Made by a program: the position numbers and the translations under genes. Positions 1 through 2,846 of a DNA stretch of 46,792 nt are shown piece after piece; within the stretch, counting starts at the first letter, position 1; every line of letters begins with the position of its first letter. Below the pieces are notes generated by a model that was not told the DNA's origin, made no database searches, and saw nothing but the letters and a program-made list of their open reading frames with translations. The stretch lies in assembly GCA_015711855.1 (NCBI GenBank), contig JACVJF010000010.1:1-46792 (forward strand), given 5' to 3'. The stretch comes from Candidatus Solincola quzhuomuensis. GTDB taxonomy: Bacteria > Actinomycetota > Geothermincolia > Geothermincolales > RBG-13-55-18.

Positions 1-68
1 CACATATCCAGGCATTCCCAGCACCCTATACATCGCTTAGCCTCGATGCGAATCTCCCGCTCGCCCAA
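1..68 (-). CDS. Partial 4Fe-4S ferredoxin-type protein (N-terminus only)
   Basis: Only the first 22 codons lie in the window. The frame opens with TTG at 68-66, just after an in-frame TAG, and reads LGEREIRIEAKRCIGCWECL, which contains the CxxCxxC core of a 4Fe-4S ferredoxin motif. A purine-rich AGGTGG lies about 10 bases upstream and can serve as ribosome binding site. It begins 27 bases after the hydrogenase-like large subunit ends, so it is probably its electron-transfer partner and part of the same operon. It could be a small ferredoxin or the start of a longer iron-sulfur protein; the rest is beyond the window edge. Confidence 0.6.
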   Translation of the reverse strand, partial: MGEREIRIEAKRCIGCWECLDM

Positions 69-95: not shown

Positions 96-1409
96 TCAAT
101 GGACCCCGCAAGGAATACAAGGGGCATAAGCCCTTATCACCATCTGCAGGAGATCTTCCGCCTTGCCCTCCCTCTCGGTACCCCCCAGAGCCGCGGAGAC
201 CTCGGAGAGCGACTTTTCCAGGCTACGCAGGTTGAACTGCAGAGGGGAAAAAACGGAAAGCCTCTCCACCAGACCTTCCTCGGAAACCTCCAGGATATAG
301 ACGAGGGATCCCTCGGGCGCTTCCAGCATCGCTGCCGCCCTTCCCGCCGCCGGTCTCACCTCCGCATGTATGTCCTCGAGGGGAGGTCCCTGGAGCAAAG
401 CCATCATCCTCTCCCAAGCATGGATCATCTCCAGCATCCTCAAGGCGTGACCCAGCAGGCATCTGTGCACCGGAAATCCCCATTGAGCCTTCAGCTCCTC
501 GAGCTCCTCGTCGGCCCACGGTGAACCGTACCTTCCGTTCACGTTAAGGCGGGCCAGAGGACCCACTTTCAATCGATCCACACCCTCCAGGCCGGCGTAG
601 CGAACATGGCTGGAAGGGGAGTTCTCCTCCCGCAACTTGCCGGGCAACTCCTCCATGGAAAGGAGCGCCGGATGGGGAGCCTCCGGACCTAGGAGCGCCG
701 GCGAAGCCCCTTCGATCTCCATTCCGCTTTGTCCTTTCAACGCGAGGTAGGCCGTGGGCGCGTCTCCAGCTTGGTTAACCAACTCCTCGTTTCTCCTAAG
801 GATGAGCTTCACCAGCCGCGCCGTTTCCGCGAGGAGAGGCCTGGCCCCGTTGAGCCTTTCCAACAATCCCCTCCTGACTTCTTGGGATACATCCCGGGCC
901 GCTCCTGCGGGCCGAAAGTTCATAGGATGCACGGCTGCTCCTGCCACCTCCCTAAGGACGGTGGTCCCCAGCGATTTCAACCCTAAGAGCCTCCTCACCA
1001 CCTCCTCGTCCACGCGGTATATGCTTACGAGGTTGCGCAGGCCGGGGTCGGAAGCGGGAAAGAGCAAGTCGGGCAGGCCGTGTACGAAAAGGGAAATGGC
1101 ATGCCTCTCGAAAAACTGAGCCCAAAGGGCCAGGTTGCGCAGATCGCGCAGGTTCGACGAGACCTCCAGTCCCAGGGCTTTTTCCACCGCCAGGGAGGCG
1201 GCTACTTGATGGAACAGGGAATCAACTCCACAGATGCGAGAGACCACGGGAAGAAGGTTTTCCAGATGTGCTCCGCGGACTATCCTCTCCAGTCCGCGGT
1301 ATCCGTAGGCTTGGAAGCGCACCCGGGCTCGCCCGCTCTCCTCCATATCCACCCTCAGGGATGCGTTTCCAAAGATCCTGGTAATGGGATCTATAACCAG
1401 CTCAGTCAT
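96..1409 (-). CDS. Atypical [NiFe]-hydrogenase-like large subunit
   Basis: The 437-residue protein has the overall layout of a group 3 (Mvh/Frh-like) hydrogenase large subunit, which normally holds the Ni-Fe centre. Key positions differ. The N-terminal motif usually written RIEGH reads RIFGN (residues 11-15), so the conserved proton-transfer Glu is Phe. The L1 motif RxCGxCxxxH reads RICGVDSLFH (58-67): Cys60 is kept but the second nickel-ligand Cys is Asp63, coded GAT. The L2 motif reads APCIPCGVH and keeps Cys431 and Cys434, but the usual Asp before Pro is Ala429. The stop codon follows His437 directly, so there is no C-terminal peptide for a maturation protease. The gene starts with ATG 36 bases after the small subunit. 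The family is clear from the L2 motif and the partner gene; classical H2 activity is doubtful. It may be a degenerate, sensory or repurposed enzyme. Confidence 0.85.
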   Translation of the reverse strand: MTELVIDPITRIFGNASLRVDMEESGRARVRFQAYGYRGLERIVRGAHLENLLPVVSRICGVDSLFHQVAASLAVEKALGLEVSSNLRDLRNLALWAQFFERHAISLFVHGLPDLLFPASDPGLRNLVSIYRVDEEVVRRLLGLKSLGTTVLREVAGAAVHPMNFRPAGAARDVSQEVRRGLLERLNGARPLLAETARLVKLILRRNEELVNQAGDAPTAYLALKGQSGMEIEGASPALLGPEAPHPALLSMEELPGKLREENSPSSHVRYAGLEGVDRLKVGPLARLNVNGRYGSPWADEELEELKAQWGFPVHRCLLGHALRMLEMIHAWERMMALLQGPPLEDIHAEVRPAAGRAAAMLEAPEGSLVYILEVSEEGLVERLSVFSPLQFNLRSLEKSLSEVSAALGGTEREGKAEDLLQMVIRAYAPCIPCGVH

Positions 1410-1445: not shown

Positions 1446-2354
1446 TCACCTCCCGGATCCTCTTTCCCCCAGCCGGTAGAGATAGGGTGCGGTTCCTCCC
1501 CTGCGTCGTCTGCGGAGGATGGGTTCGGCCAGGGTGAAAAGATAGTGGGTGTGAACGGGATCTTTGATGGCCGCTTTGACGTCCTCCCTCTTCGTTCCCG
1601 TGGCCCGGGAGATCCTTCTCGCCGTCTCCTCCTCCATATCGAGGGAGGGGTCCGTCAACACCCGCGAGGACGGGCCACGGCACCCTCGACAAGGCACTCC
1701 CATGGTGGAGGGGCAGAGGGCCCCGCATCCATCGCGGGTCAGGGGACCCATGCATAGGAAACCCGCATCCAGCAGGCAAATTCCCGTGGGGGGGGCGGCT
1801 TCTGTGATTCGCCGCGGCCCGGGCTGGGGTAACTGCGGTGAAACGACCGTGCATTCGGCGCAGACCGTGCTGCCCTCCCGGACGGGCGTGCTCCCGGTGA
1901 GTAAGAGCTGCAGGAAATCGCGCAGAAGCTCGGGGGAGGGTGGGCATCCCGGAAGGTAGGCATCCACCCGTATATAGGAGTCCAGGGGCAATAGGCGCCT
2001 GACCCCTTGAGGTGCCCCTTCAATGGTTTCCGTTCCGAAACGACCTTCCAGCAGGCTCTCCTCGGAGAAGCGGTTGGCCAGACCCTGCACTCCTCCAAAA
2101 CAAGCGCAGGTGCCCAGAGCCACCACGCGTTCCGCTTTCTCCCGCACCTCCCTGACCTTGAGGAAATGCCCGGCGTTTCTTGCCGTTCCTTCGACCAGGG
2201 CCAGGTCCACGTTAGGCATCTCCCGATGGTCCATGAGCAAGGGGGCGTAGGCGATCCGGTTATCCCCGATAAAGGCGTAAAAATATTCCTCCAGGTTGAG
2301 GAAGACCATCTGGCATCCCAGACAGGAGCTGAGGGAGAGTATGGCCACCTGCAT
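1446..2354 (-). CDS. [NiFe]-hydrogenase small subunit, Mvh/Frh gamma-like
   Basis: This 302-residue iron-sulfur protein is the electron-transfer subunit that pairs with the downstream large subunit. The N-terminal proximal-cluster motif is SSCLGCQ (Cys11, Cys14), followed by GTCACFGG (Cys83, Cys85) and PGCPPSPE (Cys137). A Cys-rich C-terminal half follows with CAEC (165, 168), Cys193, Cys201, GCGALCP (210, 214) and PCRGC (222, 225). This pattern is typical of the three-cluster small subunits of F420-reducing and methyl-viologen-reducing hydrogenases. No signal peptide is visible, so it should be cytoplasmic. It starts with ATG three bases after the upstream stop codon, indicating a tight operon. 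In contrast to its partner, no expected cluster ligand is obviously missing. Confidence 0.9.
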   Translation of the reverse strand: MQVAILSLSSCLGCQMVFLNLEEYFYAFIGDNRIAYAPLLMDHREMPNVDLALVEGTARNAGHFLKVREVREKAERVVALGTCACFGGVQGLANRFSEESLLEGRFGTETIEGAPQGVRRLLPLDSYIRVDAYLPGCPPSPELLRDFLQLLLTGSTPVREGSTVCAECTVVSPQLPQPGPRRITEAAPPTGICLLDAGFLCMGPLTRDGCGALCPSTMGVPCRGCRGPSSRVLTDPSLDMEEETARRISRATGTKREDVKAAIKDPVHTHYLFTLAEPILRRRRRGGTAPYLYRLGERGSGR

Positions 2355-2357
2355 AAC

Positions 2358-2846
2358 TCACTCCAAGGTCGTCCGCAGAACAACCAGGCAAGCACCGGGT
2401 CCGGCGTGCTGGGTATGGAGGTCCACCTTGCGACCGAAGATCTCCTGGAGCATGCCCGCGGCGTAGCCATGCACCGCCTGGCATGCCACTCCCCCCAGGG
2501 GTATACCGGAAACCAGACAGGATTCCCTTACCGGACACGCCTCGAAAAGCAGGCGTATAAGCATCTGCTCCGCTTCAAACACCCAATATTCCTCGTCTTC
2601 CTTGTTCTTCCACAGGGATACCTTCCACACCTCTTCCCGGCCGGGAAAGACCCATTTCAGTGCCCTTTCCAGATCGTCGGTTCGGTCGTAAGCCGCCGAT
2701 TCCCTCCTCCCCAGATCCTTTCCAGCGAAATACATGAGTTGGGAGGTGGATCGTCCGGTCACTTCCGCCCCCGCCTGATCCAGCACGGCCAGGGCCTCGC
2801 ACACGGCCTTCCATCTTTCGCGCAGGATTTCCGCATTATCAGCCAC
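2358..2846 (-). CDS. V4R-like small-molecule-binding protein, first gene of the hydrogenase-like operon
   Basis: The 162-residue soluble protein is not confidently recognised. The C-terminal half (about 95-160) runs through a helix, a Cys-containing segment (CPVRESC), a hydrophobic helix (AVHGYAAGMLQEIFGRKV) and a Cys-containing final strand (GPGACLVVL). That order resembles V4R (4-vinyl-reductase) domains, which bind hydrophobic ligands or cofactors and often sit in regulators. The N-terminal half is helical and charged. The start is GTG at 2846, preceded by GGAGGAAGGG. It is the first gene of the unit and ends three bases before the hydrogenase small subunit, so it may sense or bind a ligand for the complex or act as an assembly factor. 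The V4R call is tentative. Confidence 0.6.
   Translation of the reverse strand: MADNAEILRERWKAVCEALAVLDQAGAEVTGRSTSQLMYFAGKDLGRRESAAYDRTDDLERALKWVFPGREEVWKVSLWKNKEDEEYWVFEAEQMLIRLLFEACPVRESCLVSGIPLGGVACQAVHGYAAGMLQEIFGRKVDLHTQHAGPGACLVVLRTTLE

Follow-up and report, generated by a model that had tools for sequence, protein, structure and literature searches.

Introduction

Complex I is taken to descend from a hydrogenase whose metal centre was lost and whose cavity found a new use. Ehr complexes are hydrogenase homologs that lack the NiFe ligands, and the regulatory hydrogenases have no C-terminal tail and pass H2 signals to a kinase. In the MBS complex of Pyrococcus, polysulfide is reduced by the proximal cluster inside a hydrophobic cavity that arose when the NiFe site was lost; in complex I, the substrate is quinone (PMC7684303). 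For hydrogenases of actinobacterial clades that possibly include the present one, a survey lists groups 1, 3b, 3c and 3d, and its accessible part makes no mention of such a family (PMC7325909); a literature search of partial coverage found no description of it.

The family is represented in a window of 46,792 nucleotides (the whole stretch of DNA that was analysed, contig C9) from Candidatus Solincola quzhuomuensis, whose genome assembly comprises 2.69 Mb in 187 contigs and is 96% complete. A cassette located at the end of this contig encodes, in this order, a V4R-fold protein, a hydrogenase-like small subunit, a hydrogenase-like large subunit and a 2[4Fe-4S] ferredoxin; in related genomes, the four genes follow one another at short distances wherever the contig extends far enough.

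Comparison with described systems

Both subunits find their best match, in sequence as in fold, in group 3c MvhAG/VhuAG, and the small subunit retains its 12 cluster cysteines. Unlike in MvhAG/VhuAG, all catalytic and several ligand residues of the large subunit are lost, there is no tail, and the V4R-fold protein and the ferredoxin stand in place of MvhD/HdrABC, which are absent from the neighbourhood of the cassette loci examined. MBS (MbsL/MbsJ), likewise related to hydrogenases, has no proton-gate Glu and only some of the NiFe cysteines; its reaction takes place in the emptied cavity, at the proximal cluster (PMC7684303). MBS, however, is membrane-bound and ion-pumping, with a site-differentiated proximal cluster held by three Cys and an Mrp-like membrane arm, whereas the cassette contains no genes for membrane subunits and retains four Cys at the proximal cluster: the CxxC with its spacing and two further Cys. 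With complex I (NuoD/NuoB), the cassette proteins would share a lost NiFe site, a kept Fe-S wire and a reused pocket; in contrast to complex I, the cassette is soluble, has no Nuo membrane genes and still encodes most of the former NiFe cysteines. The large subunit scores only 28.8 bits with the NuoD model (cut-off 360 bits, E 5e-7), and the small subunit matches NuoB at E 2e-6. Ehr complexes differ in being membrane-bound and group 4-like, whereas the cassette is soluble and group 3-like. Group 2b regulatory hydrogenases (HupUV/HoxBC) resemble the present large subunit in having neither a C-terminal tail nor protease processing, but their NiFe site is complete and they require Hyp proteins, which this clade does not.

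The large subunit

A preliminary description of the window had placed a hydrogenase-like large subunit at 96-1409 without stating its strand. The coordinates hold, and the gene lies on the minus strand: it encodes 437 amino acids, starts with ATG and stops with the TGA at 98-96. Pfam assigns the product to NiFeSe_Hases. The best NCBIfam match is VhuA, with 159 bits against a cut-off of 800, well short of the score expected for group 3c MvhA/VhuA. MvhA and other group 3 large subunits are the closest solved proteins, and the predicted model (pLDDT 90, pTM 0.92) matches MvhA (5odc_F) over its whole length with a TM score of 0.94 and an rmsd of 2.2. Judged by this model, the overall fold of the large subunit is preserved.

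The active-site region deviates from that of [NiFe] hydrogenases at several positions, all on the minus strand. Phe13 (codon TTT, 1371-1373) replaces the proton-gate Glu of the RIEGH motif, which reads RIFGN. The L1 motif reads RICGVDSLFH: the first cysteine, Cys60 (TGT, 1230-1232), is invariant across the clade, and the second, bridging one is replaced by Asp63 (GAT, 1221-1223), whose codon is two changes away from TGT. Glu366 (312-314) turns APRG into APEG and thereby substitutes for the Arg that is positioned over the NiFe site. What remains of the L2 motif, APCIPCGVH, comprises Cys431 (117-119), Cys434 (108-110) and His437 (99-101) in the arrangement Cys-x-x-Cys-x-x-His (99-119), with Ala429 at the Asp position of DPCxxC; the stop codon follows directly after the His, and the protein thus ends without a C-terminal extension. 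These codons were read off the DNA and bear out, one by one, what the preliminary description had reported for RIFGN, Asp63 in L1, the Ala before PCIPC and the end at the final His. Its statement that the other three Cys and a small subunit with all its cluster cysteines are present holds as well. The Arg-to-Glu change, the V4R partner and the ferredoxin partner had been overlooked.

Distribution and phylogeny

Relatives were sought in 31 genomes of the class Ca. Geothermincolia and are present in families f1, f2, f4 and f6. In a profile search over 397 Actinomycetota genomes, full-length clade members scored at least 526 bits, with contig-end fragments below this value, and the best match outside the class reached 341 bits; the seven best matches outside the class are conventional hydrogenases. 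A single-sequence scan of 84,980 species genomes returned two close relatives only, both of them from Actinomycetota.

The members were aligned with a conventional comparison set of 29 loci (one entered twice) and MvhA, and every conventional relative compared has E, C, C, R, D, C, C at the active-site positions. In contrast, 22/22 clade members have neither the Glu of RIEGH nor the Asp of DPC. The Glu is replaced by F, N, Y, G, M, S, Q or P. The missing tail, whose conservation the preliminary description had proposed to examine, extends to all 22 members. In the window's family, 14/14 members, those of the divergent genus g3 among them, have Asp at the second L1 Cys, one of the four NiFe cysteines of the L1 and L2 CxxC motifs; f2, f4 and f6 have Cys. 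Glu in place of the APRG Arg is found in the same 14 members and in one f2 member, and most of f4 keeps Arg. The last Cys and the His of L2 are lost in f6 (L028; G012), and g3 has no L2 His; the cassettes are otherwise intact in both. In a tree computed without the motif columns, the 22 members form one branch (support 99/97) within the group 3 radiation, where the branches below it are supported at only 89/74 and 86/45. Alignment and tree together indicate that the residue changes mark a clade. Substitutions unique to one sequence are ruled out by the aligned homologs that share them, and close homologs with the standard motifs, which the preliminary description had named as the finding that would turn the changes into errors, did not emerge.

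Two sequences outside the clade deserve mention. A large subunit from outside the class (L082, G336:C89), on a long branch and with a very short tail, reads DICVSCATH with Ile for the DPC Pro and retains Glu, Arg and all four Cys; it possibly represents an early step of a similar change. On the Acaryochloris plasmid pMB02, a Ni/Fe hydrogenase alpha subunit (L137) with approximately 26% identity to the query lies between an upstream CBS-domain gene and a downstream HypC.

The large-subunit frame is open in every clade member, and dN/dS between related species amounts to 0.09-0.25. In two pairs from genomes that lack HypD (L018/L019 and L022/L026), synonymous change is near saturation and amino-acid identity is 50-53%, with all frames intact. 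These values indicate that the large subunit is under purifying selection; orthologs in independent assemblies, together with dN/dS, rule out decay, a pseudogene or a sequencing error. The earlier judgement that the gene looks selected rather than decayed thus finds support in the open frames, in dN/dS and in the pattern common to the closest homologs, which chance could by no means account for.

Cassette partners

The small subunit (1446-2354, minus strand, 302 amino acids) resembles VhuG and carries 12 cysteines for three [4Fe-4S] clusters, all of which are invariant in every cassette examined. It matches the Pfam family Oxidored_q6 (8e-26) and has the proximal CxxC, with its spacing, two further Cys at this cluster and the cysteines of the medial and distal clusters.

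The first cassette gene (2358-2846, minus strand) encodes a protein of 162 amino acids, the fold of which was predicted with a pLDDT of 88. The top Foldseek matches are the phenol-sensor domains of PoxR/MopR/DmpR and the TRAPP Bet3 proteins, the PoxR match having an E-value of 2e-5 and a probability of 1.0, which places the protein in the V4R/Bet3 fold. By sequence, the assignment is less apparent: the score with Pfam V4R is 13.3 bits, below the gathering score of 31, a weak match is found in 6 of 14 members, and a sequence profile searched against the PDB gave chance matches only. Unlike the phenol sensors, the partner is a stand-alone protein with neither an AAA+ nor a DNA-binding domain, and identity is about 15%. 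Cys104, Cys122, His147 and Cys153 are conserved and may form a metal site, presumably akin to the zinc site of the phenol sensors. The V4R family is present in 23/397 genomes, every one of which has the hydrogenase-like pair; in the 24th pair-bearing genome (G005), the large-subunit match starts at a contig end.

The 5' end of the 2[4Fe-4S] ferredoxin gene (1-68, minus strand; EREIRIEAKRCIGCWECLDM) is cut by the contig end. The gene is complete in relatives and lies downstream of the large subunit wherever the contig continues. From gene order and co-occurrence, we infer that the pair forms a complex with the V4R protein and the ferredoxin.

Genomic neighbourhood

The cassette is positioned between mltG and Roadblock/LC7 genes. 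Directly downstream, most genomes encode Roadblock/LC7 proteins, a DUF4388 protein and a small GTPase, followed by aroE and PilB/PilT-type ATPases. This conserved run (L036-L053, for example L052:11011-18996), with its two or three Roadblock/LC7 proteins, resembles a type IV pilus control cluster of the MglA/MglB type. In four genomes without the cassette (G006, G010, G011 and G013), the Roadblock genes occupy the same place after alaS-ruvX-mltG; hence they are no obligate partners, which weakens a Roadblock-GTPase-pilus link as the main explanation of the cassette. G021 and G007, whose contigs stop at mltG or within it, were not counted as cassette-free. The neighbouring genes yield no pathway.

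Maturation genes

HypD and HypC form the scaffold on which the Fe(CN)2CO part of the NiFe cofactor is built (PMC6886295). HypD is absent from five genomes in which the cassette is intact: G023 (97% complete, from the window's family), G014 (99%), G015 (82%), G001 (99%) and G002 (95%). HypF above the cut-off is missing from the same five, and so is HypE, for which ten genomes were tested, including G000, whose hyp operon is interrupted by a contig end. Conventional large subunits are present in 24/24 genomes with HypD and in 0/7 without it (Fisher p 4e-7), whereas cassette presence shows no association with HypD (p 0.64). The Hyp dependence of [NiFe] hydrogenases, judged on HypD, HypF and HypE, is thus not seen in the five cassette genomes, which, lacking all three, cannot make an Fe(CN)2CO centre. 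As far as gene content can tell, the NiFe(CN)2CO centre is probably absent rather than altered, at least in these five. The preliminary description had envisaged a sensor, an enzyme for some other substrate or a novel class of hydrogenase-like proteins whose metal ligation is altered; our data support this range, except that 'altered metal ligation' is probably too weak for hosts of this kind. HypD is present in 19/24 cassette genomes, among them that of the window, which also has HypF, and is matched there by a conventional enzyme; with HypD retained, NiFe insertion is formally conceivable in these 19.

The HypA gene occupies a conserved position separate from the hyp operon (G000:C21:24640-24975 and seven further loci, L138-L145), with a HypB-like gene adjoining it in most loci examined. 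Almost every genome retains HypA, cassette-free ones and those that lack HypD, HypE and HypF among them. Two genomes with HypA (G006 and G010) have neither the cassette nor conventional hydrogenases, and every genome encodes a Ni-CODH, a likely client of HypA. HypA therefore says little about the large subunit, and a Ni-only site proposed on its strength is weakened.

Possible functions

The large subunit is most likely not a hydrogenase, a conclusion drawn from gene content: five cassette genomes, four of them at least 95% complete, lack HypD, HypF and HypE. That it might nevertheless be an unusual, working H2 enzyme with an altered NiFe site is very improbable. Its fold and the small subunit are intact and the window's own genome encodes HypD and HypF, but none of the proton-gate Glu, the bridging Cys, the APRG Arg and the Asp of DPC has survived, and the genes persist in related genomes from which HypD, HypF and HypE are missing. 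An origin as pseudogene, sequencing error or assembly artefact, to which the fragmented assembly and the contig-end position of the cassette might point, is hardly credible, given that the same residues recur in independent assemblies with open frames everywhere, low dN/dS and conserved synteny. We lean, by a modest degree, towards a soluble redox module that is derived from a hydrogenase and no longer uses hydrogen, is linked to ferredoxin and offers its vacated pocket to another ligand, with MBS and complex I as precedents. Evolution kept the fold, the wire of three clusters, the V4R protein and the ferredoxin constant while the H2 chemistry drifted, and a ferredoxin-linked module is the simplest reading of this pattern. 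Such a module could operate in the following manner: the large subunit would contain no NiFe(CN)2CO centre and would not require its maturation; the small subunit would serve as an electron wire of three [4Fe-4S] clusters to the dedicated 2[4Fe-4S] ferredoxin; the former metal pocket beside the proximal cluster would accommodate a different ligand with redox activity, probably a small compound, hydrophobic or sulfur-containing, that is bound with, or delivered by, the V4R-fold partner; and this ligand would be reduced or oxidised using ferredoxin electrons. That the proteins form a complex, that electrons pass to ferredoxin and that a ligand is turned over in the pocket is deduced from the genes and their arrangement.

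The main alternative to the redox module, although on balance unlikely, is a sensor of redox state or of a ligand, in which the pair together with the V4R protein would detect a small molecule or the redox state of ferredoxin and signal, perhaps, to the Roadblock/LC7-GTPase and type IV pilus genes. The V4R fold being nearest to phenol-sensing domains, the tail missing as in regulatory hydrogenases and the Roadblock/LC7, DUF4388, small-GTPase, aroE and PilB/PilT-type genes directly downstream in most genomes would all suit a sensor; yet the link to the Roadblock genes is not obligate, as the four cassette-free genomes demonstrate, the cassette has no kinase, PAS or DNA-binding output gene, and a dedicated ferredoxin suggests electron flow. 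A mononuclear metal in the pocket is compatible with the redox module and would specify what the pocket contains. Three or four of the former nickel ligands are conserved in most members and would not be needed by an empty pocket, so a different metal may be bound. Ni, Fe or Zn, without Fe(CN)2CO, would be held by Cys60, Asp63, Cys431, Cys434 and His437 (Cys4 in other families). The strong conservation of the ligand positions in f1, f2 and f4 speaks for such an enzyme, as does HypA, retained with its HypB-like neighbour where HypD, HypE and HypF are missing. Its probability is nonetheless rather low: HypA is also present in G006 and G010, every genome has Ni-CODH as its likely client, and the cassettes of G012, lacking the last Cys and the His of L2, and of g3, lacking the His, are otherwise intact.

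Implications

A complex-I-like step seems to have been taken separately here, in a soluble enzyme. As a tentative scenario, to which we give somewhat less credence than to the redox module as such, a group 3 lineage of Ca. Geothermincolia would have independently repurposed the [NiFe] fold, losing NiFe and acquiring a new ferredoxin-linked reaction, a ligand handled by the V4R protein and possibly a replacement metal (Cys3Asp in the window's family). Apparent intermediates survive: members with four cysteines and no Glu, members in which Cys has become Asp, and one family with a broken L2 motif. They provide a natural series for testing how a hydrogenase is converted into something else, in which some hosts lack the machinery for the metal centre. 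Genomes annotated with group 3c hydrogenases may, as a warning, not use H2 through them. The long inheritance of the pair together with two partner proteins in an uncultured, heat-loving actinobacterial class points to a new redox job.
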